From the NCBI GenBank assembly GCA_017469935.1, contig JAFUFL010000025.1:1-37568 (forward strand): 37,568 nt of DNA. The letters run 5' to 3'. The DNA is from Lachnospiraceae bacterium (lineage in GTDB: Bacteria > Bacillota > Clostridia > Lachnospirales > Lachnospiraceae). This document shows positions 12,637 through 31,780 of the stretch, piece by piece. The position numbers and the translations under genes are program-made. The notes under the pieces were generated by a model. That model ran no database searches, was not told the origin of the DNA, and saw nothing but the letters and a program-made list of their open reading frames with translations. Numbering within the stretch: position 1 is the stretch's first letter; every line of letters begins with the position of its first letter.

Positions 12637-12690
12637 TATTGCGTTATTCTGCCTGAATTCTCTGATTTCTCCATTCCGGTTAAAAGATCT

Positions 12691-14526: not shown

Positions 14527-14633
14527 GAAGAACCTCCCTGCCATCATTATAAAGCAGGGAGAGACGAAATATTTGATAAAAATGCAGTTTTCTTGTTTTA
14601 CGGAATTTACATTATGTGCAGGAAATTAGCCAC

Positions 14634-14905: not shown

Positions 14906-14953
14906 CCCCCAGAATCACCACCACACCCACTCACTCCTCTCAGTTCACCTTTT

Positions 14954-15038: not shown

Positions 15039-15172
15039 TTCGCGGAATTAAAGCAGCCCTCTTTTTTTATTAAGATACAACCATCAAAGGAAACAACAAC
15101 ACGAAACAACACAAAACAATACGTAACAGTACAAAACGAAACAAGAACTTATAAAAAAGGAGGAAAAGCAAA

Positions 15173-15970
15173 ATGGCAAACTGGTTAAATCTTGAAGGCA
15201 AAGTTGTGGCGGTAACGGGCGGCGCTTCCGGAATCGGAAAGCACATCGCAAGCACACTCGTTGCGGCAGGAGCGGACACGGTGGTCATCGACATGAACGC
15301 CAAGACAGGCGAAGTCGTTGACGGCGCTTACCAGGTACAGTGCAATGTCACGGATCCTGAGAGCGTTAAGGCGATGATGGCAGAGATCCTTGCAAAGTAC
15401 GGACACATCGACGCGATCGTCAACAACGCGGGCATCAATCTTCCCCGTCTTCTGGTAGATGTCAAGGGCGAGAAGCCGCAGTACGAACTGGATGCCGCAT
15501 CTTTTGACAAGATGTTCGCAGTTAATGTAAAGGGACTTTTCCTCTGCGCACAGGCGGCAGCGAGAGAGATGGTAAAGCAGGGACACGGCGTTATCGTGAA
15601 CATGTCCTCCGAATCCGGCAAGGAAGGTTCCCAGGGACAGAGCGCATACTCCGCCACTAAGGGCGCGGTTGACAGCTTCACCCGCAGCTGGGCAAAGGAA
15701 CTTGGCAAATATAACATCCGCGTGGTCGCGGTAGCGCCCGGCATCATGGAAGCGACCGGACTTCGGACACCGGCATACAACGAGGCGCTTGCCTACACGA
15801 GAGGCGTAAAGCCTGAAGAGCTCTCTACTGATTACACCAAGGTCATTCCGATCGGCCGCGACGGCAAACTCGACGAAGTCGGCGATTTCGTAGCTTACCT
15901 CGTATCGGACAGAGCAAGCTACATCACCGGAACAACGCTTAACATTTCCGGCGGCAAGTCCAGAGGGTGA
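15173..15970 (+). CDS. srlD: Sorbitol-6-phosphate 2-dehydrogenase, short-chain dehydrogenase family
   Basis: Oxidises imported D-sorbitol 6-phosphate to fructose 6-phosphate with NAD+ in the cytoplasm. This 265-residue classical SDR has the cofactor motif TGGASGIGKH (residues about 15-24), the NNAG motif, a catalytic Ser region (VNMSSESG), active-site YSATK, and a C-terminal ITGTTLNISGG. It has a start with AGGAGG nearby (AAAAAAGGAGGAAAAGC). It is first in the operon followed by gutM and the three PTS sorbitol genes, which gives good support for the substrate. Other SDR enzymes look similar, so the function rests partly on context. Confidence 0.88.
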   Translation: MANWLNLEGKVVAVTGGASGIGKHIASTLVAAGADTVVIDMNAKTGEVVDGAYQVQCNVTDPESVKAMMAEILAKYGHIDAIVNNAGINLPRLLVDVKGEKPQYELDAASFDKMFAVNVKGLFLCAQAAAREMVKQGHGVIVNMSSESGKEGSQGQSAYSATKGAVDSFTRSWAKELGKYNIRVVAVAPGIMEATGLRTPAYNEALAYTRGVKPEELSTDYTKVIPIGRDGKLDEVGDFVAYLVSDRASYITGTTLNISGGKSRG

Positions 15971-16090: not shown

Positions 16091-16558
16091 ATGCTGGCAA
16101 TCTTGATCGTCATGGGAATTGCTTTTTTGCTGCAGGGACTGTTCGGCTTCTTGCAGATGAAGCATCTGACAAATGAATTCCTGAAGCTCAGAAGAAAAGG
16201 AAAAGTTGCTTTCGGAAGAAAGTCGGGAGGCTTCAGGGCAGGAGCGGTCGTAATGTTCCGGGTCGATGACGACGGGATCGTACAGGAGGCAAAAAAGCTC
16301 GAAGGTACGACTGCTTTTGCAAGGGTAAAGCCCCTGGAAGGTTTTGAGGGCAGATATATAGGGAGCCTGACACAGGCGGACGGCCCCAATCGCCACAAAA
16401 ACCTCTGCAAAGCAATTGAAGATGCAGCGCTCACCTACCGGAAATATGCGGCAGGCGAAACAATAGATGAGACGCCGACGCCGGGTCTTCTTGCAAAGAC
16501 AGAACTCGCAGTCGGGAGCCTGCTGGATAAAACAAGAAAAAAAGCAGCAGTTCGATGA
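16091..16558 (+). CDS. gutM: GutM-type glucitol operon activator
   Basis: This 155-residue protein has an N-terminal hydrophobic segment (LAILIVMGIAFLLQGLFGFLQ) followed by the GutM family region (LRRKGKVAFGRKSGGFRAGAVVMFRVDDDGIVQEAKKLEG). In enteric bacteria GutM is an activator of the glucitol operon; how the membrane-anchored clostridial form acts is not settled. ATG at 16091 follows GGAGGTGA. It lies between the dehydrogenase and transporter genes, the usual place in Bacillota. The 120-base gap ahead of it holds a 24-bp direct repeat (GGGAATCGGA at 16001 and 16025). Confidence 0.85.
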   Translation: MLAILIVMGIAFLLQGLFGFLQMKHLTNEFLKLRRKGKVAFGRKSGGFRAGAVVMFRVDDDGIVQEAKKLEGTTAFARVKPLEGFEGRYIGSLTQADGPNRHKNLCKAIEDAALTYRKYAAGETIDETPTPGLLAKTELAVGSLLDKTRKKAAVR

Positions 16559-16598
16559 GAACACTTAAAACTTTGTTTATCAAGAAAGGCGGAACAAT

Positions 16599-17150
16599 AT
16601 GGATTTCTTAGTAAAATTTGCATCGGCATTCATGAGTGTATTCCAGGCAGGCGGAGAAAACTTCGTAAGCTGGGTAACCGGTATCATCCCTACGATCCTG
16701 ATGCTCCTGGTCATGATGAACGCGGTCATCGCCCTGATCGGAGATGAGAGGATCGAAGTCATCGCAAGAGTCTGCACCAGCAACCCGATCCTGCGCTACG
16801 CGGTACTTCCCTGGGTCAGCGCATTCATGCTCGGCAACCCGATGGCCCTCTCCATGGGCAAGTTCATGCCGGAGTTCTACAAGCCCAGCTACTACGCAGC
16901 GGCAAGTTACCACTGCCACACGAACAGCGGTATTTTCCCTCACATCAATCCTTCCGAGATCATGATCTACCTCGGAATCGCACAGGGACTTACCGCACTC
17001 GGACTAGATTCCACACCCCTGGCACTTCGCTACATGCTGGTCGGCTTCATCGCCAACTTCATCTCCGGCTGGGCGACAGACTTCACAACTGCTTTCGTTC
17101 AGAAGCAGCAGGGCATCAAGCTGAGCAAAGAGCTCAAGACAAGAGCATAA
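16599..17150 (+). CDS. srlA: PTS glucitol/sorbitol EIIC subunit
   Basis: This 183-residue membrane protein is the first membrane domain of the sorbitol phosphotransferase permease. It has about four hydrophobic segments, the family phrase NPILRYAVLPWVSAFMLGNP, YHCHTNSGIFPHINPSE, and a basic C-terminus. It works with SrlE (EIIB plus remaining membrane part) and SrlB (EIIA) to import sorbitol as the 6-phosphate. It aligns by eye with the N-terminal third of the fused protein encoded at 12691-14526. The order srlA-srlE-srlB matches known operons. Confidence 0.92.
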   Translation: MDFLVKFASAFMSVFQAGGENFVSWVTGIIPTILMLLVMMNAVIALIGDERIEVIARVCTSNPILRYAVLPWVSAFMLGNPMALSMGKFMPEFYKPSYYAAASYHCHTNSGIFPHINPSEIMIYLGIAQGLTALGLDSTPLALRYMLVGFIANFISGWATDFTTAFVQKQQGIKLSKELKTRA

Positions 17151-17175
17151 GAACAATATTTTGGCAAAAAAGAGA

Positions 17176-17235
17176 GAGCGCTGATTGAAAGAAAGAGCGC
17201 ATTAATCAAAACAGAGAGCACTTATTGAAACGAAA
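17176..17235. repeat. Three degenerate copies of a 20-bp unit in the srlA-srlE gap
   Basis: GAGCG/GAGCA followed by an ATTGAAA- or AATCAAA-like block recurs at 17176, 17195 and 17216. Its role is unknown; it fills the 119-base gap between the two PTS genes. Confidence 0.5.
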
Positions 17236-17269
17236 AAAGTACCTATCCAGACCAGAGGAGGAAAATAAA

Positions 17270-18295
17270 ATGGCAGAATATCGCGCAATTCGTGTAGAAA
17301 AAGGTTCAGGCGGTTTTGGAGGCCCTCTTACGATCCAGGGCACAGAGCAGAGAAATAAAGTTATGTATATCACAGGCGGCGGCGTTGCTCCCGAGATCCT
17401 TGAGAAGATCGTAGAGCTGTCCGGACTGGAGCCCGTAAACGGCTTCAAGACCAGCTGCCCCGAGGACCAGCTGGCCCTGGTGATCATCGACTGCGGCGGC
17501 ACACTTCGCTGCGGACTGTATCCCAAGAAGCGCATCCCCACCATCAACATCAACCCTGTAGGAAAGGCCGGCCCGCTTGCCCAGTTCATCAAGGAAGACA
17601 TCTACGTCTCCGGCGTCACAAACGCGAACATCAGCCTTGCGGACGCTTCCGCAGCTCCGGCTCAGGAAGCTCCGGCTCAGGAAGCCGAGGCACCCGCAGA
17701 GGAGAAGAAGGGAATCGACACCAGCAAGAAGCTCTCCGAGCAGATGGCTGAGTCCGGCAACGCAAGCGTTCTGGCAAAGATCGGCCTCGGCGCAGGTAAA
17801 GTCGTAGCGACCTTCAACCAGGCAGCCCGCGACGCGGTGCAGACCTGCATCGGCACACTGCTTCCTTTCATGGCATTCGTATCCATGCTGATCGGTATTA
17901 TCAACGGAACAGGCTTCGGCACATTCTTCTCAACCCTGCTGCAGCCCCTGCTCGGCAACATCTTCGGACTTCTGGTTCTCGGAATTGTGTGCTCGATCCC
18001 CGGCCTGTCCGCGATCCTTGGCCCCGGCGCCGTCATCTCCCAGATCCTCGGTTCCATCATGGGTGCTGAGATCGCAGCCGGAAGGATCTCCCCCAGCCTT
18101 GCACTGGTCGGCCTGTTCGCACTGAACTGCCACGCAGCCTGCGACTTCATCCCTGTAGGCCTCGGCCTTGCGGAAGCAGAGACAGAGACCGTTGAGGTCG
18201 GTGTAGTGTCCGTCATGTACTCCCGTTTCATCACAAGCTGGATACGCATCCTTCTCGCGATCGTGTTCAGCATCGGACTTTACGCAGCAGCATAA
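17270..18295 (+). CDS. srlE: PTS glucitol/sorbitol EIIB(C) subunit
   Basis: This 341-residue protein has a cytoplasmic EIIB domain first (IRVEKGSGGFGGPLTI, VIIDCGGTLRCGLYPKK with candidate phospho-Cys). A short Ala/Pro/Glu linker (APAQEAPAQEAEAPAEE) follows, and then a membrane domain (TLLPFMAFVSMLIGIINGTG, AACDFIPVGLGLAEAETE). ATG at 17270 is chosen over the frame's upstream start at 17225 because AGAGGAGG (17254-17261) lies 8 bases ahead. It transfers phosphate from SrlB to sorbitol during uptake. It aligns by eye with the C-terminal part of the fused protein at 12691-14526. Confidence 0.92.
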   Translation: MAEYRAIRVEKGSGGFGGPLTIQGTEQRNKVMYITGGGVAPEILEKIVELSGLEPVNGFKTSCPEDQLALVIIDCGGTLRCGLYPKKRIPTININPVGKAGPLAQFIKEDIYVSGVTNANISLADASAAPAQEAPAQEAEAPAEEKKGIDTSKKLSEQMAESGNASVLAKIGLGAGKVVATFNQAARDAVQTCIGTLLPFMAFVSMLIGIINGTGFGTFFSTLLQPLLGNIFGLLVLGIVCSIPGLSAILGPGAVISQILGSIMGAEIAAGRISPSLALVGLFALNCHAACDFIPVGLGLAEAETETVEVGVVSVMYSRFITSWIRILLAIVFSIGLYAAA

Positions 18296-18336
18296 TCAGA
18301 AATTCTAACCAAATCTAGCCATAGGAGGGTAATAAA

Positions 18337-18702
18337 ATGAAGGTCATTTATGAGAATAAGGTCAAAGCAAGCGGTATTGCGGTAGAAGAGTTTAAAGAGG
18401 CAGGAATGTTCATCATCTTCGGCGAGAATGCGCCCGAGGAGATCAAGGACTACTGCTACAGCGTAAGCGTCAATCCCATTAACGGCGAGATCGCCGCAGG
18501 CCAGTACGTTGACATCGACGGCCAGGAATATAAGATCACCTGCGTCGGCTATGAGGCGCCCATCACACTCAAAGGCCTTGGCCACTGCACATTCAACTTC
18601 AGCGGCGCGACGGAGGCGGAGCTTCCCGGCACCATCTATGTAGAGGCAAAGCCCATGCCGGAGATCGGGATCGGATCCGTGATCCGGATCATCGAGAAGT
18701 GA
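18337..18702 (+). CDS. srlB: PTS glucitol/sorbitol EIIA subunit
   Basis: This 121-residue cytoplasmic phosphocarrier accepts phosphate from HPr and passes it to SrlE. It matches the EIIA(Gut) family: VNPINGEIAAGQYVDIDGQ, ITCVGYEA, and a central GLGHCTFNFSGA containing a conserved-looking His. The length is normal. ATG at 18337 follows AGGAGGG. It is the last gene of the operon. The stop codon lies inside the first copy of a 36-bp tandem repeat, so the C-terminal codons are part of a repeat unit. Confidence 0.9.
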   Translation: MKVIYENKVKASGIAVEEFKEAGMFIIFGENAPEEIKDYCYSVSVNPINGEIAAGQYVDIDGQEYKITCVGYEAPITLKGLGHCTFNFSGATEAELPGTIYVEAKPMPEIGIGSVIRIIEK

Positions 18703-19247: not shown

Positions 19248-19649
19248 ATGCATGAGATGGGAATCATACTACATATTGCAAAGATGCTGGATGAGACGGC
19301 ACAGGAACAGAACATTAAGAAAATCGGGTCGGTGACTCTGGAGGTCGGCGAGGTGTCCGGAATTATGACGGACCTGTTCGTCGACTGCTGGAATTACTTT
19401 AAGGTCAGGCACCCGGTGCTTGCGGAGTCGGAACTGCGTCTTGTGACGATCCCGGCAGTGACCTTCTGCGGAAACTGCGGGAGGACTTACGAGACCGTCA
19501 GATACGGCAAGGAATGCCCGTACTGCGGCAGCGGTGAGACATGGCTGGTCGACGGAAACCAGTGCGTGATCAAGGAGATCGAAGCGGAGTGCGAGGAGTG
19601 TGAGGAGTTCGAGGAGAGTGAAGAGTTCGAGGAGTGCGAGGACGAATAA
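19248..19649 (+). CDS. hypA: HypA-type nickel metallochaperone with acidic Cys-containing tail
   Basis: This 133-residue protein is of the HypA/HybF family, which binds nickel through the N-terminal MHE and helps load [NiFe]-hydrogenase or urease. The start MHEMGIILHIAKML is canonical, and the zinc site is CGNCGRTY...CPYCGSG (two CxxC, about residues 75-100). After VIKEIEAE the chain continues with a tail of about 20 residues of nearly pure Glu plus Cys (CEECEEF, EECEDE), which is unusual and could bind metal. No other hyp or hydrogenase gene is in the window. ATG follows GGAAAGGGTGAA. A hairpin starts at the stop codon. Confidence 0.88.
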   Translation: MHEMGIILHIAKMLDETAQEQNIKKIGSVTLEVGEVSGIMTDLFVDCWNYFKVRHPVLAESELRLVTIPAVTFCGNCGRTYETVRYGKECPYCGSGETWLVDGNQCVIKEIEAECEECEEFEESEEFEECEDE

Positions 19650-19699: not shown

Positions 19700-20410
19700 T
19701 TATTCAAAAAGCATCTTCATTCTGAAAACCGTCTTTTCCTTCTCCCCGCAGAGGTAGAAGGAATTTTCCGATTCGGCAAAGCCCACATTCATCGTATCTC
19801 CGAGCCGTGCTTCGCCGATGTACTCGGAAGAGAGTTCACGCAGCTTTCGCCGGCGCAGCGCTTCGGGCATCAGATCCACTGCCAGGTCGTAGTACCTGGC
19901 ATTATTCATGTGCCCGTTGAGATCCACATAACTGTAGGGGACTTTGAACGGCTCCGCGGCGGAGATCTTTTCCGTGCGGATGCGCCCCGGCATGGGCAGC
20001 TCATTTCCGGTCACGGTCTCTTTGATAAAGATGTCATGGCTCTCCGGGAAAACGATCCCGCGGGTCTTACTGTCAATCAGGACCCATAGCGAGACGGCTT
20101 CGAACAGGACTTGCCCCTTGGTGTCCACAAGGCGGAAATATCTGGGAAAATACAGATGCATCGTTTTACCCGGCCAGGAGAGAAGCGTGACCTTCTCGTC
20201 ATATTCCGGAAGCCGGTGAAAGACCGCGCGGTACTGCGTAACAGCCCACAGAAGTCCCTGATCCAGCGTCTTGTCCCGGGGCACCCCCAGATCGATCGTG
20301 TGCGCGATCGCCGCCTCCTGAAGACGCGTGAACAGCGAGGACAGGCGCAGGGTGCGGGACATATCCACATCAGAGGAGAGGACCTGGAAATCCTGTCTGT
20401 ATACCTTCAT
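19700..20410 (-). CDS. Acyl-ACP thioesterase (FatA/FatB family)
   Basis: This is a 236-residue double-hotdog thioesterase that hydrolyses acyl-ACP to free fatty acid and ACP in the cytoplasm. The first hotdog contains LFTRLQEAAIAHTIDLG and GLLWAVTQYRAVFHRLP. The second contains YSYVDLNGHMNNARYYDLAVDLMP, whose D-x-N-x-H-x-N pattern is the family active-site region. ATG at 20410 is chosen because GGAGG lies 8 bases ahead. It begins 2 bases after the stop of the ACP gene, so the two are co-translated. Together with the ligase upstream it suggests loading and unloading of a dedicated carrier protein. Chain-length preference cannot be read from the sequence. Confidence 0.88.
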   Translation of the reverse strand: MKVYRQDFQVLSSDVDMSRTLRLSSLFTRLQEAAIAHTIDLGVPRDKTLDQGLLWAVTQYRAVFHRLPEYDEKVTLLSWPGKTMHLYFPRYFRLVDTKGQVLFEAVSLWVLIDSKTRGIVFPESHDIFIKETVTGNELPMPGRIRTEKISAAEPFKVPYSYVDLNGHMNNARYYDLAVDLMPEALRRRKLRELSSEYIGEARLGDTMNVGFAESENSFYLCGEKEKTVFRMKMLFE

Positions 20411-20412
20411 AA

Positions 20413-20667
20413 TCAAAACCTCCGGTTGATCCGCTTATCGAAGGCGTTCACCACATCGCCGAAGGTGGACATTTTAGACCACTGCCTCTGCGGGATCTTG
20501 ACATCGAATCTCGCCTCGAGCCGGCAGATGATCATAGTAAAGCCCATGGAGTCGATGGCTGTGTCTGTATTGATAACCGTATCCTCGTAGAGCGGCTGCC
20601 CTTCCATATCGGGGACGCACTCGTAGATTACTTCTCTGCAGGTTTCAACAATTTTGCTTCGATCCAT
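20413..20667 (-). CDS. Acyl carrier protein (dedicated, secondary)
   Basis: This 84-residue acidic helical protein has the phosphopantetheine attachment site DSMGFT (Ser about 40) in place of the usual DSLD/E. This divergence, and the location next to an acyl ligase and a thioesterase rather than in a fab cluster, suggests a specialised carrier instead of the housekeeping AcpP. The start has AAAGGA ahead of it. It would carry an acyl chain as a thioester to be modified by, or passed among, the neighbouring enzymes. Which enzymes bind it is inferred. Confidence 0.85.
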   Translation of the reverse strand: MDRSKIVETCREVIYECVPDMEGQPLYEDTVINTDTAIDSMGFTMIICRLEARFDVKIPQRQWSKMSTFGDVVNAFDKRINRRF

Positions 20668-20774
20668 GGCGCAGATATCCTTTCAGTTGCAAGTCAATAT
20701 GTGTCAGTTATTCATGCGGCATAATCATTATATCCGCAATCCGGAGTTCTGTCATGTATGCGCTGTCAACGGGA

Positions 20775-21998
20775 TCACTCCTGTATCGTGTAAGCGGAGA
20801 TATCGAACAGGGACTCATCCACTTCACCGTCAATAGATCCGACCGTATAGAGCGAATCGCCGACATAAGCGGCGGATTCGATCACCGGCGCCGCCGTGTA
20901 GCAGTACGCAAGGGATCCGTCTTCGGCAAAATAGAAAACGGTCTCGGGGCTGTATTCCGTCTGCGGATAGACCTCTGCCGGGAAAGAAGCGCCTTCAATC
21001 TCGCGGTCTTCTTCGACCTGGTCTGTCCTCACAGACGCCATCCGCATTTCGGAGAAGAGGTCATCCATCAGAAGGATGTTGTCATTTGTGACACTCAGAG
21101 GAAGATCCGTGACATAGTTTCCGGTCTTTTTGTCCGGATAGAGGTTGTACACTTTGCCGTCCTTGATAAAGGTGACTAAGGTGCTCTCCGCTCCGGCGAC
21201 TTTCGTCGTTCTGGCGGAGTAGTAAACGCCATCCTTAGCGTATACATCATAATCCTGTACTGTGTTAAGGGCGTCCAGACGGCGCTGGTAGCGGAGGTGA
21301 GCTCCGGCGACGGGATCGATGCCGTCCAAAATATTGTCGAGTTTGGTCTTGTTGGCTTCTTCGGCAGCCGCCATCTGTTCCTTAACTTCATCGATGGTGA
21401 GAAGCGTATAGCTTGAGGTGTCCGCCTTTTCCTGCGCGTAGATCAGCAGCATATCGCCGGTCCCGTAGATGTCCAGTTCTATGACGCCGCCCCTGGCATT
21501 GCCCCCGGTGACGGTTCCATCTGCCAGCGAGAGATTGAAGGCTCCATCTTCGGAAGACCAGGAAGTAATGTCGATGGTGTCGCCCATTAACGTTAAGGAG
21601 CCGGTCCCTTCTGCCAAAAGGCTCATGGTGGACTCGATCTCCATCTCCGTGGAACTCACGGTATAGCCTTCATTCCGCACGGCGAAGATAGTGTATTCAC
21701 CTTCAACGGGAAGATCCGATACAGTGTACTTATCGGCAATCTCTTCCGCCTGCGTGGGTTGTTCGGGAACAGCTACTTCGGCTTTCTGCGCTTCTCCGGA
21801 AACTTCCGGCTGTGCCGGATCTGCCGCGTCTGCATTCGCGTCCGCCGCTTCTGCCGGAGCGGCTTCCGCCTCCTGTTTGCTCTCCTCTGTAGTTACTTCA
21901 GCGGGCTTTTCCGGGCCCGTGGAGGAAGAATCTCCGCCGCAGCTGCATAGCGAAGCCGCGAGGACTGCTGCAAGTATCAGTGACATTAGTTTTCTCAT
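20775..21998 (-). CDS. Lipoprotein of unknown function
   Basis: ATG at 21998 begins a classical lipoprotein signal (MRKLMSLILAAVLAASLCSC, Cys about 20), preceded by GGGAGG. The same frame extends upstream to 22106 but without a ribosome site. A Ser/Pro/Glu/Ala-rich linker follows (residues 25-85), then a globular part of about 320 residues. That part holds a small beta domain (GEYTIFAVRNEGYTVSSTEM, repeated TGSLTLMGDTIDI and GVIELDIYGTGDM) and a C-terminal part resembling LolA/outer-lipid or DUF-type beta folds (YYSARTTKV, DGKVYNLYPDKKTG). No family is recognised. Its place between the acyl ligase and ACP genes suggests capture or sensing of a lipid substrate at the cell surface; this is inference only. 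Confidence 0.75.
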   Translation of the reverse strand: MRKLMSLILAAVLAASLCSCGGDSSSTGPEKPAEVTTEESKQEAEAAPAEAADANADAADPAQPEVSGEAQKAEVAVPEQPTQAEEIADKYTVSDLPVEGEYTIFAVRNEGYTVSSTEMEIESTMSLLAEGTGSLTLMGDTIDITSWSSEDGAFNLSLADGTVTGGNARGGVIELDIYGTGDMLLIYAQEKADTSSYTLLTIDEVKEQMAAAEEANKTKLDNILDGIDPVAGAHLRYQRRLDALNTVQDYDVYAKDGVYYSARTTKVAGAESTLVTFIKDGKVYNLYPDKKTGNYVTDLPLSVTNDNILLMDDLFSEMRMASVRTDQVEEDREIEGASFPAEVYPQTEYSPETVFYFAEDGSLAYCYTAAPVIESAAYVGDSLYTVGSIDGEVDESLFDISAYTIQE

Positions 21999-22116
21999 AA
22001 TCTCTGTGCCCTCCCTTTGCATCAGGACAGTGGCCGCAGCCACATATGAAAAACAACAAGTATGACTGACTATGCGAGCTGTATTTTGTAAAAGGCCCAT
22101 GTGCATATGGACCGGT

Positions 22117-23553
22117 TTACGGACAATGGATTTCCCAGCGCTTTACCTTGCCGGTCGCGGTGCGGGGGAGCGGCTGATCCGTGAACAGGATCTCACTGAG
22201 CTGCTGTCCGCGCGGAAGCTGCGACATGGCGCCGCGAAGTTCTTCCTGTACCATGGAGCGCGAAAGTTCCCGCATCTCTTCCGGCCATGTGGACGATTCC
22301 TTGTCGACGAGCAGAAGGACCGGCTTCCCGTCCCTCTCAAGAACTGTGAAATCGCGCCCGGGAAGAGCGGCCATAATACGCGCCTCGTACTCGGGAAGAA
22401 AGATCTTGGTGCCGTCGGCGAGTACAAGAATCTCCTTTTTTCTGCCGATGACATGGAGTCTGCCGTTTTCATCCCATTTCCCGACGTCGCCGGTGAAGAA
22501 AAGATTTCCTTTCAGGACTGCCGCGGTATCTTCCGGATGCTTGTAGTAACCCTTCATCATGCAGCTCGGAGACGAGATGAGGATCTCTCCGTCAGAGGCC
22601 AGCGCCACAGTATCTTCAGGGCAGACTTCCAATGCGAACGGGTCAAAAGAGGGACTGCCCGGCACGCTGATCGCGACGCCGGAGCTTGTCTCCGTCAGCC
22701 CGTAACCGAAACTGACCTGTACGCCCTGCTGTACCGCGCTGTTTAACAGCTGGGGAGAGCAGTCTCCGGCTCCCACGAGAACGAGACGGAGTTCGTTGTT
22801 CATCAGTTTGTGCTGCACGAGGAAACTCAGAAGAAGCGGAACGGCAGAGAGGACCGTCGGCTTGTAGAATTCGAAGTCCATGGTATAGTACCTTGCGCCC
22901 CGACCAAGGGCTACAGCCGCGCCGCATTCCATTCCCCACAGGAGGCCGCACACGAAGCCGAACACATGGTTCAGTGGAAGCATGCACAGCAGTGTGTCGT
23001 CCTGAGAGAGAGGAAGCATACAGCTCCCATTATAAGCAGCTGCCAAAAGACTCCGGTCTGTCAGGACGACAGCCTTGCTGCTCGCCGTGGTGCCGGAAGT
23101 AAAGAAGAGGATGTCGCTGCCCTCGACAGAAGGATCGGCGGCCTCTGCCCGCGGCGCGATCCCGTCAGTGAGATAAGGAGTCAGCTCTTCCACCAGATCC
23201 GGATCGCTGCTCCAGAGAATATCGATATCTGTCTGCCTGATCTGCTCCTGCAAAAGAGTGCCGTCGGCGTTCTCATCCAGAAGAACGGTCTGCAGTCCTG
23301 CGACGGCGGATGCGAAGATCGTCTCGACGCAGTCAAGGGAACCGTCGCACAGAACGCCCAGACAGGTCATTCCAAAAGCGCGCATCTCTTCGGCGCGCGC
23401 AAATACAGACGCCGCAAAATCGGCGCTGCTCTTCTTTACAGGCGCTCCGCCTTCTTCATAAACAAGAAGCGGCCGTTCAGGATCATTATGCGCGAAGAAT
23501 CTGAGAGCCTCCGCGAAACTATTAAATTTTGGAGGAAATACTTTAGTCTTCAT
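22117..23553 (-). CDS. AMP-forming acyl ligase (acyl-CoA/acyl-ACP synthetase type)
   Basis: This 478-residue ANL-superfamily enzyme activates a carboxylate as acyl-AMP and transfers it to a thiol, here probably the nearby ACP. Motifs seen are the phosphate loop FFTSGTTASSK (residues 150-160), GYGLTETS (about 287), TGDVGKWDENGRLHVIGRKK (about 367-386), and the C-terminal catalytic Lys in PRTATGKVKRW. It is rather short for long-chain acyl-CoA synthetases and close to ACP-loading ligases. ATG at 23553 has no ribosome site; the hexamer TATACT lies only 6 bases upstream, so the transcript may be leaderless or the real promoter lies elsewhere. It heads the minus-strand group and is divergent from the fatty acid isomerase-like gene. 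Confidence 0.85.
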   Translation of the reverse strand: MKTKVFPPKFNSFAEALRFFAHNDPERPLLVYEEGGAPVKKSSADFAASVFARAEEMRAFGMTCLGVLCDGSLDCVETIFASAVAGLQTVLLDENADGTLLQEQIRQTDIDILWSSDPDLVEELTPYLTDGIAPRAEAADPSVEGSDILFFTSGTTASSKAVVLTDRSLLAAAYNGSCMLPLSQDDTLLCMLPLNHVFGFVCGLLWGMECGAAVALGRGARYYTMDFEFYKPTVLSAVPLLLSFLVQHKLMNNELRLVLVGAGDCSPQLLNSAVQQGVQVSFGYGLTETSSGVAISVPGSPSFDPFALEVCPEDTVALASDGEILISSPSCMMKGYYKHPEDTAAVLKGNLFFTGDVGKWDENGRLHVIGRKKEILVLADGTKIFLPEYEARIMAALPGRDFTVLERDGKPVLLLVDKESSTWPEEMRELSRSMVQEELRGAMSQLPRGQQLSEILFTDQPLPRTATGKVKRWEIHCP

Positions 23554-23559
23554 AGGTTA

Positions 23560-23636
23560 AGTATAGCATTCTTTAACAAAGAATGTGTGAAATTACATCG
23601 AATGTTAATGAATATTTAACAATTTGGCGGTATACT
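23560..23636. promoter_or_regulatory. Divergent promoter region with two dyads (candidate fatty acid regulator sites)
   Basis: CATTCTTTAACAAAGAATG (23567-23585) is a perfect 8+8 palindrome next to TATACT (minus strand, 23560-23565). TGTTAATGAATATTTAACA (23603-23621) is a second dyad 9 bases from TATACT (plus strand, 23631-23636). Both dyads hold a TTAACA element. Good -35 boxes are not obvious, so the promoters may need activation. One regulator acting on both directions is a plausible reading; no regulator gene adjoins. Confidence 0.5.
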
Positions 23637-23697
23637 AATATTAATACGACTGCTTGGGAAGCAGAAAAACCAGTTTAATAATGAAAGGTAGAGCAAA

Positions 23698-25092
23698 ATG
23701 GACAAGAACATCAAGATCTGTATTATCGGCGGAGGCCCGGCAGGCCTCTCCGCAGGCATGTATCTGGAGCAGAAGGGTTACGAGAACTACACTATCCTCG
23801 AGAAGAACGACCGCGTCGGCGGAAAGTGCTGGTCTCCCTATTACAACGGACGCCGCTATGAGATGGGCGCGATCATGGGTGTTCCGTCCTACTACGCGGT
23901 ACACGATGTCGAGGAGTTCTGCGGCATCACCCACGACGGCCCGAAGCTCAACCGCAACTACAAGAACAGACTGGGCCAGGTCATAGAGCCCTTTGAGCCC
24001 AAGAAGAATATCAAGAAGATCCCGCGCCTTCTCAAGATGAAGAAGCAGCTTAAGAAATTCGGCGAGCTCCTTGAGACCAAATATAAGGGATATGATATCA
24101 ACGGCCACCGCGGCGTAGCGGAGGGACGCTACGAGGGATTCTCCGCAGCCAGTGCCAAAAGAGAGCCCGTCAGCGGCGTAAACCCCAACCTCAAGGACCT
24201 GGCGCTTCCTTTCAAGAAATTCTGCGAGATCAACGGCGTAGAGCTGGTGCAGGACATCTGGATCGGCCCCTTCACGTCTTTCGGCTATGGATATTTTGAC
24301 GAGATTCCCGCGGCTTATGTCCTGAAGTATCTGGATTTCCAGACCTGCATGAACTTCGTCAAGATCAACCTCTGGACATGGAAGAACGGAACGCAGTTCA
24401 TCTGGGAGTCCTTAAACGACCACCTCAAGAATCCGGCCAGACTTAACAGCAAGATCGACAAGGTCGAGAGAAAAGACGGCAAGGTCTATGTGACCGTGAA
24501 CGGCGAAGTCGAGGAATACGACAAGATCATCGTCACTTCTCCTCTCTATGTGCCTCGGAAAGAGAACAGAGACGACGGACTGGTCGGCATGGTGGACTAT
24601 TTTGACGCGCGCACGGACGAGAAGAAGCTCTTCTCCCAGATCGAGTACGAGCGCTATGACGTGCTGGCCGTCGAGACCAAGCCGGAAGACCATCCCGAGA
24701 TCTCCTACTATGTATTCGACAACATGGTCCCCAAGAGACTGGGCCATCTGATGGTTTACTACCGCCGCTGGAGAGACACGGTGGACCAGGTCATCACGAC
24801 CTATGCGCTCCGCAAACATAAGAAAATGGAAGAGGTTCCCTATGAAAAGTGCAGAGCCAGAGTTCTCAAGGACCTGGAGGTCATGGGCAACCCTGCTGCC
24901 AACGTCGTAAACGAGTGGAGCGTCTACTACTTCCCGCACGTGTTCACGAACGCTTACAGGGACGGCTGGTATGACAAAGTAGAGGCGATGCAGGGCAAGT
25001 ACGACACCTACTATGCGGGCGAGATCATGAGCTTCGGCGACATGGACGAGACCTGCGAGTACTCCCGCGAGCTGGTGGAGAGATTCTTCTGA
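23698..25092 (+). CDS. FAD-dependent polyunsaturated fatty acid isomerase homologue (PAI-like linoleate isomerase)
   Basis: This 464-residue flavoprotein of the amine-oxidase fold has an FAD motif GGGPAGLSAGMYLEQKG (Gly 11-13-16). I recognise a closely similar pattern to the linoleate isomerase (PAI) of Cutibacterium (Propionibacterium) acnes, which makes trans-10,cis-12 conjugated linoleic acid. The shared phrases are RRYEMGAIMGVPSY (about 54-67), LLETKYKGYDINGH, SFGYGYFDEIPAAYVLKYLDF, RLGHLMVYYRRW and YYAGEIMSFGDMDE near the end. Similarity runs along the whole length and the length is alike. No signal peptide or membrane segment is seen. It is first in an operon with two redox genes. Isomerisation of a free unsaturated fatty acid is the best guess; a desaturase/oxidase role or another lipid substrate remains possible. 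Confidence 0.82.
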   Translation: MDKNIKICIIGGGPAGLSAGMYLEQKGYENYTILEKNDRVGGKCWSPYYNGRRYEMGAIMGVPSYYAVHDVEEFCGITHDGPKLNRNYKNRLGQVIEPFEPKKNIKKIPRLLKMKKQLKKFGELLETKYKGYDINGHRGVAEGRYEGFSAASAKREPVSGVNPNLKDLALPFKKFCEINGVELVQDIWIGPFTSFGYGYFDEIPAAYVLKYLDFQTCMNFVKINLWTWKNGTQFIWESLNDHLKNPARLNSKIDKVERKDGKVYVTVNGEVEEYDKIIVTSPLYVPRKENRDDGLVGMVDYFDARTDEKKLFSQIEYERYDVLAVETKPEDHPEISYYVFDNMVPKRLGHLMVYYRRWRDTVDQVITTYALRKHKKMEEVPYEKCRARVLKDLEVMGNPAANVVNEWSVYYFPHVFTNAYRDGWYDKVEAMQGKYDTYYAGEIMSFGDMDETCEYSRELVERFF

Positions 25093-25156
25093 TTTGTCCC
25101 GGGCGGACCTGAGGAGACTCTTTCACAGTGAATGACATCACAGGAGACAATCGATT

Positions 25157-26689
25157 ATGAAATTTTACAAAGATCATTATGACGTGATCGTGATCGGAGG
25201 GGCCCTGGCGGGCCTCTCCTCCGCGCTCATGCTGGCCGATAAGGGGCTGGATGTGCTCGTGCTCGAGCGCCACAACCTGCCCGGCGGCATCGCCACGAGC
25301 TTTGTCCGCGGCGGTATAGAGATCGAGGCGGCGCTTCACGAGATGATGTCCATAGGTCCGAAGAACAATCGGCTCAAGGTAGGCAAGTTCTTCGACGACA
25401 TGGGCGTCGATATTGACTGGCTGCAGGTGCCGGAATGTTACCACGCCAGCCTTCCCGGCCTGGAAGTTACTTTGCACCCGGGCCTGGAGCGGTTTTCCCG
25501 CGAGATCGACGAGCAGGTGCCGGGCACCTATGACAAAGTATTGAAACTCCTGAAGCTCTGCGACACGGTCTTTAACAGCGTCAATGAGCTCTCCATTCAT
25601 CCCATGAGCAAGCCGCAGATGCTCCTTAAGCACGAGGCGTTCGTCAAGACGGCGGGCTATTCCACCAAGGAAGTGCTCGACACTTTTGACCTGCCGCAGA
25701 AGGCGCTGGATCTTCTGGCGCCCTACTGGATCTATGTCGGCAGCGGTTTCTCGGATCTTCCCTTCACCATCTATTCCGTCCTGATGGCGGATTACGTGGG
25801 CTACGGTTCCATGATCCCCAAGAAGCTCAGCCATGAGATGAGCCTGAAGATGGCGGAGCGCGCCGAAGAGATGGGCGTGCAGATCGAGTACCGCCAGCAT
25901 GTGGACAAGATCCTGGTGGAGAACGGGCGGGCCTACGGCGTGCGCACGGCGCGCGGCGACGAGATCCACGCGGACTACGTGATCTCCTCCGCTTATCCCA
26001 ACAAGGTATACACCAGCATGATCGAGCCTCTGCGTGAAGTGCCGGCAGAAGCCACCAAGATGGTCAACGGCAGGCGCCTGTCGCTGACTGCCTTCTCGGT
26101 CATCCTGATCCTGGACAAGCCGGCCGAGGAGCTGAATATTAAGGATTACAGCATCTTCCGCGGCGACACCATGGACACGGATGTGCTCTATGAGAACCTG
26201 GCGGGCCTTGGCCCTTACAGATATCTGACCTGCATCTGCCACAATTACGGCAATCCCGGCGTGACGCCGGAGGGCACCTGCTCCTTCAGCGTGACGGTGC
26301 TCCCGCGCGTGGACGGTTGGAAGACTGTCAAGGCGGAAGACTATGACCGCGTCAAGCACGAAGTGGCCAAGCAGCTGATCGACGACATGTCGGACTATTT
26401 TGGCGTAAATCTTCTGGACCATGTGCTGGAGTGCGTCATCGAGACGCCCATGACCATAGCCCACTACACAGGGGCCTGGAACGGCTGCATCTACGGCTAC
26501 GCGCACACCATGGAGGACCACATCGTCGCAAGGCTCCAGACGGCGGAAGCGGAGCGCTTTATAGAGGGGCTTGAGTTTGCGGGCGCCCACGCCATCTCCG
26601 GAGACGGCATGGGACCGGCGGTGACCAACGGAAGAAAAGCCGCCAAGAATATACTGGATGACATTGCGGCTAGAAAGGAGGCAAACTGA
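25157..26689 (+). CDS. CrtI/RetSat-like FAD oxidoreductase (candidate fatty acid or polyene saturase)
   Basis: This 510-residue flavoprotein of the phytoene desaturase family has an N-terminal dinucleotide motif VIVIGGALAGLSSALMLADKG (Gly 14, Ala 16, Gly 19; the middle Gly is replaced). It also has LPGGIATSFVRGGIEIEAALHEM and a C-terminal FAD-closing segment AISGDGMGPAVTNGRKAAKNIL. Relatives desaturate carotenoids or saturate retinol (RetSat), so double-bond oxidation or reduction is the likely chemistry. No other carotenoid gene is present. It lies 64 bases after the isomerase-like gene and touches the reductase gene that follows (TGATG), so the three are one operon. Reduction of the isomerised acid is inferred. 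Confidence 0.8.
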   Translation: MKFYKDHYDVIVIGGALAGLSSALMLADKGLDVLVLERHNLPGGIATSFVRGGIEIEAALHEMMSIGPKNNRLKVGKFFDDMGVDIDWLQVPECYHASLPGLEVTLHPGLERFSREIDEQVPGTYDKVLKLLKLCDTVFNSVNELSIHPMSKPQMLLKHEAFVKTAGYSTKEVLDTFDLPQKALDLLAPYWIYVGSGFSDLPFTIYSVLMADYVGYGSMIPKKLSHEMSLKMAERAEEMGVQIEYRQHVDKILVENGRAYGVRTARGDEIHADYVISSAYPNKVYTSMIEPLREVPAEATKMVNGRRLSLTAFSVILILDKPAEELNIKDYSIFRGDTMDTDVLYENLAGLGPYRYLTCICHNYGNPGVTPEGTCSFSVTVLPRVDGWKTVKAEDYDRVKHEVAKQLIDDMSDYFGVNLLDHVLECVIETPMTIAHYTGAWNGCIYGYAHTMEDHIVARLQTAEAERFIEGLEFAGAHAISGDGMGPAVTNGRKAAKNILDDIAARKEAN

Positions 26690-27879
26690 TGAAAGTCAAA
26701 AATTTCTTAGCGGACGTCAGCGGAGCCTCCCGCGTCACGGCGGCGCGCATGATGGCGTTTGACGCCGCTTCGCCCGCGCTCACGGACGTGGACCCGATCG
26801 GAAATGTCTCAAGAGAGTGGCACCCCGGCCCGATCGAACTTGTGGTAACCGGGATTAAGCCCGCCTGCAAGACGGCCAAGACCATCCGCTTCGAGCGCAC
26901 GGACGGCAAAAAATTGCCCTTCTTCTATGCGGGACAGTACATTGTGCTCGACTTCAAGATCGGCGAGAGCCTGATCTCCAGGCCCTATTCCATTTCTTCC
27001 GCGCCTTATGAGGCCAGGGCGGACAAGCCCTTCGTGGAGATCACGGTCAGAAGATCCAAGGGCGACGGCTTTATCTGCGACTATGTCAACGATGAGCTTA
27101 AAGTCGGCGATATTTTGACAGGGACCATGGGACTGGGGCAGTTCTACTACGAGCCGCTGCGCGATGCAAAGCATGTAGTGGCACTGGCCGGCGGCGTCGG
27201 CATCACGCCTTTCGCCTCCATGGCCAAGGAAGTGGTGAACGGGACGCTGGACATCGACCTGACGATCCTCTACGGATCGGCCTCCTCGGACGATATCGTC
27301 ATGAAGGAGGAGCTGGAAGCGCTGGACGGTGCCTGCGATAAGCTGCACATCGTGCATGTGCTCAGCGGCGACGAGCCCGGCTGGACCGGCGAGAAAGGGT
27401 TCCTGACGGCGGAACTCATCAAAAAGTATTCGGCGGAGGATACGACGTACTTTATCTGCGGGCCGCAGGTGATGTACACCTTCCTGCGCGGTGAAGTCGC
27501 AAAGCTGGACGTTCCCAAAAGGCGCGTGCGCTTTGAGGTCTTCGGGCAGGTCAAAGACATCGCTGTCTATGAGGGCTATCCCCGCGACCTGCGAGATGAG
27601 ACCTTCGAACTTACCGTGGTGCGCGGCATCAGCGAGGTAAAGATTCCCGCGAAAGCCTGCGAGAGCATTGTCGTGGCGCTTGAGCGCGCCGGCATCCGCA
27701 TCGAGACCGGCTGCCGCAGCGGCGAGTGCGGATTCTGCAGGACCAAGGTGCTGTCTGGCGACTACTTCGTCTGCCCGGAGGGCGATGGCAGGAGAGAGGC
27801 GGATAAGGACTTCAATTACGTGCATGCGTGCGCGGCGTATCCGCTGTCGGATATGAAGATCAAGATCCCGATTTTGTAA
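26689..27879 (+). CDS. FNR-type flavin reductase fused to a 2Fe-2S ferredoxin domain
   Basis: This 396-residue electron-transfer protein takes electrons from NAD(P)H to a flavin and a 2Fe-2S centre. After about 40 residues without clear similarity comes the FAD domain with RPYSISSAP (98-106), then the nucleotide domain with GGVGITPFASMAKE (from 168) and FICGPQVMYTFL. The plant-type ferredoxin follows with CRSGECGFC (342-350) and a fourth Cys in VHACAAYP (about 380). The start overlaps the previous stop (TGATG), so production is coupled to the CrtI/RetSat-like enzyme, which is its most likely partner. NADH or NADPH preference is not evident. A terminator follows closely. Confidence 0.87.
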   Translation: MKVKNFLADVSGASRVTAARMMAFDAASPALTDVDPIGNVSREWHPGPIELVVTGIKPACKTAKTIRFERTDGKKLPFFYAGQYIVLDFKIGESLISRPYSISSAPYEARADKPFVEITVRRSKGDGFICDYVNDELKVGDILTGTMGLGQFYYEPLRDAKHVVALAGGVGITPFASMAKEVVNGTLDIDLTILYGSASSDDIVMKEELEALDGACDKLHIVHVLSGDEPGWTGEKGFLTAELIKKYSAEDTTYFICGPQVMYTFLRGEVAKLDVPKRRVRFEVFGQVKDIAVYEGYPRDLRDETFELTVVRGISEVKIPAKACESIVVALERAGIRIETGCRSGECGFCRTKVLSGDYFVCPEGDGRREADKDFNYVHACAAYPLSDMKIKIPIL

Positions 27880-28933: not shown

Positions 28934-31780
28934 TCAGTTTGTCTGTTCAGTCGGGTAATCGGATTTTCCGGTCACCTTTGTCTTGAGGATCTTGAATCCT
29001 CTCTTTAATGCATAGGGTGCTACGCATTTTTTCATTTCCTCCGCGGTGTGCATGTCTGCCGCATGAGGAATATCCCTGCTTAGATGGATCGCGTCAAATT
29101 CGCAGCGTGTAGTGCACAGGCCGCAGCCAATGCACTGGTTGAGGTCGACGACAGTCGCGCCGCACTTCAGGCAGCGGTTGGCCTCCGCTTTGACCTGCTC
29201 TTCGGTGAGAGGAAGCCTGAGATCGCGGAAGGTCTCTGCCGCTTTTCCGGGTTTTAAGCCGGGAGCCTGTCGGCCGGCGTTGTCATAGGATTCAACGCGG
29301 ATATCGGTGCGGTCGAGCTCGATGAATTCGCGCAGATCGCGGCCGATAGTCAAGGACTGGCCGGGGTGGACGAAGCGGTTGATGGAGACCATGCCTTCCT
29401 TGCCGTCTGCGATGGCGTCAATAGCGAACTTCGCGCCGTGATAGATATCGCCGCCGACGAATATGTCAGGCTCATTGGTCTGGTAAGTAGTCGGATTGGC
29501 CATTGCCGCTCCGTTCCCGCGAAGCTGTACGTTGGTGCCATCGAGCAGGCCGCCCCAGTCGGCGGACTGACCGATCGCCATCAAAATATTGCTGCAGGGA
29601 ACAGTGATGGTCTCATTCTCGTCGTAGACAGGTGCGAAGCGATGATTTCCGTCGAAGACGGAGACACATTTCTTGAAGACGATCGCCGTGACTTTGCCGT
29701 TCTCGGAGAGCACCTCTTTGGGCCCCCATCCGTTCATGATGGTGATGCCTTCTTCTTCCACTTCCGCGATCTCGTCTTCGGCCGCGGGCATTTCCTGTCT
29801 GGACTCGAGGCAGAGCATTGTGATTTTGCCATCTGTTACGCGAAGTGCCGTGCGAGCCACATCTGCCGCCACATTGCCGCCGCCGACCACTACGACATCG
29901 CCGCTAAGCCGCACGGAATTATCCTGATTGACACGGCGAAGGAAATCGACGCCTGTTACCACGCCTTCCGCGGATTCGCCGGGCACGCCGGCAAGTCTTC
30001 CGCTCTGAAGGCCGATGGCAATGTAGAAGGCCTTGAAACCTCGGTCACGCAGCTCCTGAATCGTTACGTCTTTACCGACTTCCACGCCGCACTCTATTTT
30101 GGCGCCCATGCGCTTAATGATCTCAATTTCTGCCTCCACGACGTCTTTTTCAAGGCGGAAGGAGGGAATGCCGTTCATGAGCATTCCGCCGGGACGGTTC
30201 TCGCGCTCGAAGACCGTGACAGGATATCCTTCAGTGCGCAGGTAATAAGCGGCACTGAGGCCTGCCGGGCCTGCCCCGATGACAGCAATGGGATAGTCAT
30301 CCCACTGTTTGCCTTCGCCGTTCTCGCAGACGGGCAGGTACTGCGCGAGTTCATCCGAAGCGGTTCCTTCCTTTACAAGTTCCAGCTCGCGAAGAGCGAG
30401 GAATTTCTTGATCTCATCGATGGCGACCGGCTGGTCAATAAGCCCGCGGGTGCAGCGGTCCTCGCAGCGGCGGTTGCAGATCGCTCCGCAGACTGCCGGG
30501 AAAGGATTATCCTGGCGGATGAGCCTGAGGGCTTCCTGATAGCGGCCCTCCGCAGCCATCTTTATATAGCCCTGGACTGCCAGGTGCGCGGGACATGCCG
30601 TCTTGCAGGGGGATGTGCCTGTGTCGTAGCAGTTGATCTTGTTGTGGTCGCGGTAATCGGGATCCCACTTGTCTTCGCCCCAGATGTGGTCATCGGGAAG
30701 TTCATGCATAGGGTAGACAACCTTGCTGCCGTCGGCCTTGCAGAGCTTCTGGCCCAGCCTTGCCGCGCCGGCGGGACATACTTCCACGCACTTGCCGCAG
30801 GCGACACATTTGGCCGGATCTACGTGTGCGCGGTATGCGCTGCGGGACATGTTGGGCGTATTGAAGAGCTGGGAGGTGCGCAGGCCGTAGCAGCTGCCCG
30901 GAGAGCAGTTGCAGATACCGACGATGCGGTTCGGGCCGTCCAGGTTGGTGATCTGATGGACGTAACCCTTGCGCTCGGCGCGCTCCAGGATCTCTTTAAC
31001 TTCTTCCCGTGTGACGTACTTGGCGTCCTTGCCGGAAGTGACGAGAAACTCCGCGATATCGCCTACACCGATGCACATGTGGCCCTCTATATCGCCTACG
31101 CCCTCGCCGCGGATGCGCTGAGCTTTGCGGCAAGCACATACCATTGTACAAAAAGTGTCATATTTGTCAAGCCAGTGGGAGAGGTGCTCCACGCTGACGG
31201 AGGTGGAAGCGGTGTCGATGGCCTTTTCCACCGGAATGACGTGCATACCGATGCCCGCGCCTCCGGGAGGGACGAGCTTGGCGGCCAGCTCCAGAGGCTC
31301 CTGGGGAGCCAGGTTGAACATGGTCGCGACTTCCGGATGCAGATCGGGGAGCGTCTTGTGCTCGACCATGTACTCGCCGGAGCCGACGACCCACTTGGGC
31401 ACCAGATACTGGATGTGATGGTCTTCGTTGTCGCGATTCTGCTCCAAAATACCGATCCACAACAGGTGGTCGATGATCTTCTGGGCTTTCTTAACGCTGA
31501 TGTGGTTGCGCTGCGCCAGTTCGGCGGTGGTCAGCCCCACGCGGCGCTTCTTGAAACTGAGCAGAAAAGCGACCTCACGCTTTGTAAGAAGCCGGTCCAG
31601 GATCCAGAAATCCATGTGGTTTTCGTGCATCCCGCCCGGGAGCTTCCTGGGGATATTATCGGTGATCATTCTCGCAAGCTTCATCACCATCTTGCGCTTG
31701 ACCGGGTCATCGCAGTGATGGTCTCTGATCGGATAATCTCTTTCATTGACATGTATTCTCGGATTTACCTCTTTGGGCAT
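28934..31780 (-). CDS. Large FAD/NAD(P) oxidoreductase with several 4Fe-4S clusters (copy 2)
   Basis: This 948-residue paralogue of the protein at 7685-10489 has the same modules in the same order. These are a winged-helix-like N-terminus (LTKREVAFLLSFKKRRVGLTT), Cys region CACRKAQRIRGEG and CNCSPGSC, CVACGKCVEVCPAG, the GltD-type domain (CKTACPAHLAVQGYIKMAAE, CGAICNRRCEDRCTRG), the FAD fold (AVIGAGPAGLSAAYYLRTEG), the NAD(P) fold (VVVGGGNVAADVARTA), and the C-terminal CLKCG...CIGCGLCTTRC. ATG follows AAGGAGG. It differs mainly at the N- and C-termini and in a longer linker before the FAD fold (ELELVKEGTASDELAQ). It lies next to the fatty acid locus and is followed by the PAP2 gene. An electron-supply role is likely; the partner is unknown. 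Confidence 0.85.
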   Translation of the reverse strand: MPKEVNPRIHVNERDYPIRDHHCDDPVKRKMVMKLARMITDNIPRKLPGGMHENHMDFWILDRLLTKREVAFLLSFKKRRVGLTTAELAQRNHISVKKAQKIIDHLLWIGILEQNRDNEDHHIQYLVPKWVVGSGEYMVEHKTLPDLHPEVATMFNLAPQEPLELAAKLVPPGGAGIGMHVIPVEKAIDTASTSVSVEHLSHWLDKYDTFCTMVCACRKAQRIRGEGVGDIEGHMCIGVGDIAEFLVTSGKDAKYVTREEVKEILERAERKGYVHQITNLDGPNRIVGICNCSPGSCYGLRTSQLFNTPNMSRSAYRAHVDPAKCVACGKCVEVCPAGAARLGQKLCKADGSKVVYPMHELPDDHIWGEDKWDPDYRDHNKINCYDTGTSPCKTACPAHLAVQGYIKMAAEGRYQEALRLIRQDNPFPAVCGAICNRRCEDRCTRGLIDQPVAIDEIKKFLALRELELVKEGTASDELAQYLPVCENGEGKQWDDYPIAVIGAGPAGLSAAYYLRTEGYPVTVFERENRPGGMLMNGIPSFRLEKDVVEAEIEIIKRMGAKIECGVEVGKDVTIQELRDRGFKAFYIAIGLQSGRLAGVPGESAEGVVTGVDFLRRVNQDNSVRLSGDVVVVGGGNVAADVARTALRVTDGKITMLCLESRQEMPAAEDEIAEVEEEGITIMNGWGPKEVLSENGKVTAIVFKKCVSVFDGNHRFAPVYDENETITVPCSNILMAIGQSADWGGLLDGTNVQLRGNGAAMANPTTYQTNEPDIFVGGDIYHGAKFAIDAIADGKEGMVSINRFVHPGQSLTIGRDLREFIELDRTDIRVESYDNAGRQAPGLKPGKAAETFRDLRLPLTEEQVKAEANRCLKCGATVVDLNQCIGCGLCTTRCEFDAIHLSRDIPHAADMHTAEEMKKCVAPYALKRGFKILKTKVTGKSDYPTEQTN

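Follow-up and report, generated by a model that had tools for sequence, protein, structure and literature searches.

Which genes might allow bacteria of the ruminant gut to isomerize and reduce polyunsaturated fatty acids (PUFA)? This question is raised by a locus from a Lachnospiraceae bacterium (assembly GCA_017469935.1, contig JAFUFL010000025.1). The analyzed stretch of DNA, here called the window, comprises 37,568 nucleotides and corresponds to contig 31 in a draft genome of 3.55 Mb. A reading made from the sequence alone (the sequence-only reading) had assigned seven genes between positions 19,700 and 27,879 to the uptake, isomerization and partial hydrogenation of PUFA. All seven are open reading frames (ORFs) at the positions listed in Table 1. 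Six of them form a conserved unit, in which genes for a thioesterase (TE), a dedicated acyl carrier protein (ACP) and an acyl ligase (LIG) are divergent from genes for a protein (PAI) homologous to the polyunsaturated fatty acid isomerase PAI of Cutibacterium acnes, a flavoprotein (CRT) and a reductase (FNR). We consider this cluster a good candidate for the genes with which ruminant gut bacteria would rearrange toxic plant fats and saturate them in part.

Biohydrogenation in the rumen sets how much PUFA, conjugated linoleic acid (CLA) and trans fat reaches milk and meat, and trans-10,cis-12 CLA has been tied to low milk fat (PMC10019597). The sequence-only reading had called the responsible genes poorly defined. 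Two sources agree, since a genome study from 2018 did not find the linoleate isomerase gene in Butyrivibrio genomes (PMC6249431) and a study from 2015 looked for the fatty acid reductase in common family databases without success (PMC4478896), whereas a paper from 2022 calls the biohydrogenation enzymes well characterized (PMC9533493). The cluster provides defined candidate genes and a defined carrier, because it brings together an isomerase family with a tested member, two genes for a probable reductase and an acyl carrier of its own.

PAI from the window is homologous over its full length to the characterized C. acnes isomerase (PDB 2b9w), with 47% identity over 462 residues. The phmmer match came in two stretches, and the C. 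acnes row used for comparison was joined from these two segments. The glycines of the N-terminal flavin adenine dinucleotide (FAD) motif (G11, G13 and G16 of the window protein) are invariant in 9/9 rows. The same is true for R86, F195 and F220, which align to R88, F168 and F193 of 2b9w, residues that we take to line or gate the substrate channel. Two insertions, about 24 and 12 residues long, distinguish the window protein from the C. acnes enzyme, the C. acnes row being without four unaligned residues at the first of these. In a tree of 25 PAI sequences, which has a midpoint root only and in which the C. acnes row is long-branched, the C. acnes enzyme is sister to PAI from locus L144 (63% identity, support 100/100), and this pair falls on the cluster-linked side of the tree (support 96/95). 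Since L144 holds a complete TE-ACP-LIG/PAI-CRT-FNR cluster, the biochemically tested PAI is bracketed by cluster-linked relatives. This grouping makes the isomerase assignment of the sequence-only reading a strong one, and we predict with considerable confidence that PAI isomerizes PUFA.

The gene order around PAI is conserved. A scan of the species-genome collection with PAI returned at least 459 candidate stretches, of which the best 80 were analyzed by script; loci were taken as informative if they extended more than 4 kb upstream (62 loci) or more than 3.5 kb downstream of PAI (69 loci). TE and ACP lie upstream and divergent in 60/62 loci, the adjacent order TE-ACP-LIG occurs in 58/62, and CRT followed by FNR lies downstream of PAI in 69/69, counts that do not represent independent events because the best 80 loci are those nearest to one query and are related. 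The four exceptions are L100 and L101, with LIG further upstream, L050, whose trio lies at a distance of about 6 kb, and L103, which has no trio in the locus. The order is kept in L032–L035, where LIG, ACP and TE share 34–43% identity and PAI 78–79% (L034 ends before CRT), and also in genomes that belong to different families of the class, such as G329 (family f61 compared with f1). The arrangement TE-ACP-LIG divergent from PAI-CRT-FNR evolves as a unit, more than chance would explain, which bears out the proposal that the ligase and carrier genes belong beside the isomerase. The seven-gene grouping as first drawn has to be revised: six genes are kept, the lipoprotein gene has a hidden Markov model match in 3/62 informative loci and its product matches no family, and a gene that we call gltD2 often joins the unit instead. 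PUFA uptake, another part of that proposal, is not supported, because no cluster protein matches a transporter and the lipoprotein is not conserved. In L146 (7304-8679), PAI is distributed over two frames next to an otherwise complete cluster, as could result from a frameshift, decay or an assembly error.

We turned to the question as to what CRT and FNR may contribute. CRT matches the NCBIfam models for carotenoid isomerase (TIGR02730: 4e-31, 108.4 bits, below the cut-off of 586.9) and crtI_fam (TIGR02734: 4.9e-29, 101.4 bits, below the cut-off of 238.1). Its sole solved relative by sequence at E ≤ 1e-8 is 4rep, named a desaturase (1e-12). The FAD, NAD and 2Fe-2S domains of FNR all score over cut-off. 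In a tree of 45 CRT sequences, the PAI-linked CRTs and the copy from G136 form one clade (100/100), separated by a long branch from 16 others. CRT is paired with FNR also outside the cluster: where PAI is missing or incomplete, an FNR gene lies beside CRT in all 15 additional CRT loci, and FNR directly follows 15 of the 16 CRT genes in these loci (a second CRT lies after FNR in L199; CRT of L197 has an internal stop). G486 contains two more CRT-FNR pairs (L157:5946-8721 and 12355-15101). The pair looks like a general two-gene redox module of Clostridia, one clade of which has joined PAI. The single-contig genome G136 keeps CRT and FNR next to a C-terminal stub of PAI (L195:10958-11236, query residues 371–464), and could reduce intermediates made by others. 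By eye, about 7 of the 15 additional CRT loci have a neighbor that looks like a TetR or GntR protein; L196–L209 hold CRT-FNR pairs without PAI.

From these comparisons, CRT is probably a conjugated-fatty-acid reductase, and FNR its probable electron donor. Given that CRT is paired with FNR, that PAI-linked CRTs form a clade of their own and that the genomes point to ruminants, we find it reasonably likely that CRT-FNR reduces the conjugated product. The reduction step proposed by the sequence-only reading is to this extent a good inference, but a reduced flavin might also permit isomerization of the CrtISO type. The carotenoid isomerase CrtISO needs reduced FAD. PAI and CRT could both be redox-neutral isomerases, with FNR keeping the CRT flavin reduced, CRT converting cis to trans double bonds and the cluster delivering conjugated or trans products without hydrogenation. 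A reductase partner would suit such an enzyme too, and carotenoid isomerase is the best NCBIfam match of CRT, ahead of crtI_fam, although both matches are below cut-off. Yet a dedicated NAD(P)H reductase, often accompanied by a GltD/NfnA-like protein, seems heavy machinery where only catalytic amounts of reduced flavin are called for, and the one solved relative at E ≤ 1e-8 carries the name of a desaturase. We regard two redox-neutral isomerases as unlikely, and reduction by CRT-FNR as the preferred reading.

The GltD/NfnA-like protein just mentioned is the product of gltD2, which in the window lies just outside 19700-27879. Across 53 loci, a gltD2-like gene follows FNR on the same strand in 29, is found on the opposite strand in 4 and elsewhere in the locus in 7, and is not in the locus in 13. 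GltD2 is probably an associated electron-transfer protein, and its gene often forms part of the unit.

The divergent trio codes for proteins that could activate, carry and release an acyl chain. In LIG, the adenylation motifs and the C-terminal lysine motif are invariant or nearly so in 33 rows. The best solved relatives of LIG are coenzyme A (CoA) ligases; it is only the gene order that suggests transfer of the acyl chain to ACP. The cluster ACP has no Pfam match at 0.001 (PF00550: 18.9 bits, cut-off 20.8) and scores below cut-off with all NCBIfam ACP models (best 5.8e-9). The motif DS[ML] at the phosphopantetheine serine is present in 72/72 cluster ACPs, the one from the window included. Four places in the genome match PF00550, the best of them on another contig between genes that resemble plsX and rnc by eye; the cluster ACP is separate from this plsX/rnc-linked ACP. 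TE scores 81.5 bits with PF01643 (cut-off 23.7) and matches the PDB acyl-ACP thioesterases 2own and 2ess, and the pattern N-x-H-x-N occurs in 59/68 cluster TEs. A FatA-type thioesterase domain is encoded at one further place in the genome. At L149 the trio adjoins PAI with no CRT-FNR there, CRT of the same genome (8.6e-226) being located on another contig. Since the trio stays beside PAI at this locus, it appears tied to the isomerase or its substrate. The genome in question (G695) has two distinct PAIs on separate contigs (L148 and L149), one with LIG-ACP-TE and one without a nearby cluster gene, and CRT on a third contig.

We think it rather likely that the trio handles the same chain as PAI and CRT. 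The alternative is that two sets with separate functions share a divergent promoter region: PAI-CRT-FNR would act in the biohydrogenation of free PUFA, and LIG-ACP-TE on a different acid. The trio indeed diverges much faster than its neighbor (LIG 34–67% identical where PAI is 82–94%), and it lies about 6 kb from PAI in L050 and is not in the locus in L103. Such a division of function is difficult to reconcile with TE and ACP upstream of PAI in all but two of the informative loci (LIG adjacent in 58, further off in L100 and L101), with the trio of L149, which remains with PAI where CRT-FNR is absent, and with a sample of 391 genomes of the class, in which the LIG subfamily (E ≤ 1e-60) was found in no PAI-less genome. 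We judge two separate functions to be improbable. A second alternative concerns the source of the chain: LIG-ACP-TE, PAI and CRT could draw on endogenous chains instead of dietary PUFA to make a special fatty acid, destined for the membrane or for secretion. The combination of dedicated ACP, ligase and thioesterase resembles ACP-tethered fatty-acid tailoring of the JamABC type, and the cluster ACP is distinct from the plsX-linked ACP. Against this stands that the 14 most recurrent further families near the best 80 loci, judged by eye without a family search, include no elongation, desaturase or acyltransferase gene, so that no PUFA source is seen in the cluster; in addition, the record names indicate ruminant guts, an environment rich in PUFA. 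We give little credence to an endogenous substrate, and continue with dietary PUFA as the preferred one.

On balance, we lean toward interpreting the locus as a horizontally spread cluster for PUFA isomerization and reduction in Clostridia of the ruminant gut, serving biohydrogenation or detoxification; the trans-10 type of this process is the best reading of our analysis. PAI with FAD would move one of the double bonds in linoleic or linolenic acid to give a conjugated diene, as C. acnes PAI does, and by analogy with this enzyme the product would be the trans-10,cis-12 isomer. FNR, often together with the GltD/NfnA-like protein, would feed electrons to CRT, and CRT would reduce one bond of the conjugated diene, probably to a trans monoene. 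LIG may activate the acid onto the dedicated ACP, and TE may free the product. With loading onto a dedicated ACP, toxic PUFA would not enter the pools of CoA and of the main ACP. A dedicated carrier would be useful because linoleate lowers most acyl-CoA pools of Butyrivibrio fibrisolvens by more than 96%, and biohydrogenation lets this organism escape the bacteriostatic effect of PUFA (PMC2836310). A more specific version of this scheme is carrier-tethered biohydrogenation, in which LIG loads dietary PUFA on ACP, PAI and CRT-FNR act on the bound (or exchanging) chain and TE frees it. We offer it as a tentative and rather doubtful possibility; if true, it would represent a thiotemplated route by which rumen bacteria saturate toxic fatty acids while sparing their CoA, and one that horizontal transfer has carried from family to family within the Clostridia.

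The distribution of the genes bears on the proposed spread. PAI occurs in 20/99 genomes (own genome included), every one of them among the 61 congeneric genomes, whereas the 38 from elsewhere in the order gave no PAI; it occurs in 8/119 genomes around G486 and in 9/147 around G487. In the class sample, for which the PAI, LIG and CRT searches were taken as one draw because they show the same genome labels, PAI (E ≤ 1e-60) was found in two of the 391 genomes, the window's own (G000) and G329, and the LIG profile (E ≤ 1e-60) in the same two. The CRT profile (E ≤ 1e-70) was found in 17/391, with CRT of the PAI type (E < 1e-250) only in G000, G329 and G136; the next CRT after these three gave 3.5e-138. 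Across 14 pairs of distant genomes (the near pair G000/G492 and all G488 pairs were left out), PAI is 82–94% identical compared to 59–74% for RpoB; for G487 and G491 the values are 94% for PAI, 93% for CRT, 90% for FNR and 74% for RpoB. Identity of PAI above that of RpoB, together with the patchy presence, speaks for horizontal movement. By hand count, the titles of the best 80 loci name a ruminant in 31 cases, RUG genomes, which we take to be from the rumen, in another 31, no host in 18 and another host in none; the only background for this habitat is the class-wide PAI rate of 2/391, the window's genome counted in. According to the titles, these appear to be uncultured genomes. Two loci titled Sphaerochaetaceae (L092 and L095) carry the cluster with an 84% identical PAI, reflecting either mis-binning or transfer between phyla.

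Several observations weigh against a dedicated isomerization-and-reduction cluster. The 80 loci are related nearest matches to one query, for which some shared context is expected. The class searches scored only 3–4 first-look candidates per genome where shown, and co-occurrence at this level rests on two genomes, one being the window's own. High PAI identity could be due to slow evolution instead of transfer, and gene loss may have added to the patchiness. With no more than 47% identity between PAI and the tested enzyme, its double-bond position and chain-length preference are not fixed. CRT stays under the curated cut-offs of both the CrtISO and CrtI models, and since CRT-FNR pairs exist without PAI in 14/391 class genomes its substrate could be something else. 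The 13 of 53 loci without gltD2 also count here. Certain PAI residues, which we presume to bind the acid end of the substrate, would fit a free acid and leave the ACP trio unexplained. Finally, the PAI tree contains a second clade (L038, L039, L040, L145 and L147; support 99/97, 5/25 rows), and in the stretches read at these loci we found no CRT, FNR, LIG, ACP or TE; CRT (E ≤ 1e-40) was found in 0/5 genomes that contain only second-clade PAI (G057, G037, G056, G557 and G616). Since this clade does without the other cluster genes, isomerization alone may suffice for some bacteria.

The second-clade PAIs have a GltD1-like gene nearby and, by eye, some have hypA or a gene for a HypB-like protein, making a GltD/NfnA-like protein the only kind of partner observed in both PAI clades. 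In L145:8259-13618 and L147:4558-9217, PAI is accompanied by hypA and a GltD1-like gene instead of CRT-FNR, and L145 also contains a HypB-like GTPase (by eye). Genes for hypA and GltD1 recur near the main cluster as well (window 19248-19649 and 7685-10489). Nickel-chaperone-like genes are linked in this way to fatty acid isomerases. The hypA gene at 19248-19649 recurs next to gltD1 and not in the core, so we do not count it as part of the cluster.

Table 1. Features of the PAI locus, with positions in the window.
Feature	Position	Strand	Description
TE	19700..20416	-	FatA-type acyl-ACP thioesterase; PF01643 5.7e-23, PF20791 2.6e-9
ACP	20413..20667	-	Dedicated acyl carrier protein of 84 aa, divergent in sequence; DSMG at the phosphopantetheine serine
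Lipoprotein	20775..21998 within ORF 20775-22106	-	Start near 21998 chosen by eye; lipobox LCSC
LIG	22117..23553	-	AMP-forming acyl ligase, PAI-linked subfamily; PF00501 1.6e-33
Inverted repeat	23567..23585	.	8 bp, spacer 3; divergent promoter region
PAI	23698..25092	+	FAD-dependent polyunsaturated fatty acid isomerase homologue; PDB 2b9w E 5.8e-132
CRT	25157..26689	+	CrtI/CrtISO-superfamily flavoprotein; PF01593 1.6e-19
FNR	26689..27879	+	FAD/NAD(P) reductase, C-terminal 2Fe-2S domain; PF00970, PF00175, PF00111
gltD2	28934..31780	-	NfnA/GltD-like Fe-S flavoprotein; PF14691, PF07992; NfnA chain 9n5u 2.9e-80

Within the cluster, TE and ACP overlap by 4 bases and CRT and FNR by 1 base. The 8-bp inverted repeat between LIG and PAI is a weak candidate for an operator; its 7-bp core with spacer 3 occurs in 4/67 intergenic regions, the window's counted in. 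No shared operator emerged: the frequent words in these regions are limited to TATAAT of the -10 type and runs of A/T. We also found no shared regulator gene by eye among the 14 further recurrent families, the largest of which codes for a HypB-like GTPase (13/80 loci). Plasmid carriage was considered and discarded: PAI gave one 27.5% match to a Photobacterium record, and CRT gave none. Rfam at gathering scores has no match anywhere in the window. Elsewhere in the window, 12691-14547 (minus strand) codes for a fused glucitol phosphotransferase system protein with EII-GUT and EIIBC-GUT parts, close to separate gut genes (16091-18702) and a gene for an SDR dehydrogenase (15173-15970). At 33601-36322, an ORF for a type I N6 methylase (HsdM) overlaps one for a YhcG-family nuclease; no HsdR or HsdS was found among the window ORFs scanned, which cover a part of the window.

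How does the cluster compare to known systems? CRT resembles the carotenoid isomerase/CrtI/RetSat superfamily by its PF01593 domain and by weak full-length matches to TIGR02730 and TIGR02734, and differs from it by scores far below the cut-offs, by the fixed FNR-2Fe-2S partner gene and by linkage to a fatty acid isomerase. In B. fibrisolvens, a linoleate isomerase and a CLA reductase were reportedly described by Kepler, Hughes and Fukuda. This system has the two steps proposed for the window cluster, isomerization and then reduction of a conjugated diene, and shares its habitat (PMC2654759, PMC4786556). It differs in making cis-9,trans-11 CLA and then vaccenate. The enzymes CLA-HY, CLA-DH, CLA-DC and CLA-ER of Lactobacillus plantarum likewise constitute a multi-gene pathway, which converts linoleate to monoenes by way of CLA (PMC13365329), but this pathway consists of a hydratase, a dehydrogenase, a decarboxylase-family enzyme and an enone reductase, and the Pfam matches of the window cluster include no such enzyme. 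The PAI family itself is not new to the rumen, because a survey from 2023 already reported PAI homologues from Lachnospiraceae and Oscillospiraceae in 7/228 metagenome-assembled genomes (PMC10019597). That survey differs from our analysis in using single-gene BLASTp; neither a gene cluster nor an ACP set is mentioned in the passages seen, and its main text does not contain the word reductase. We recognized no published description of the TE-ACP-LIG/PAI-CRT-FNR cluster in a literature search that lacked most subscription journals and bioRxiv preprints. With the C. acnes isomerase, the window PAI shares full-length homology as an FAD enzyme and the channel residues; it differs from that enzyme by its insertions and by its place in a six-gene cluster.

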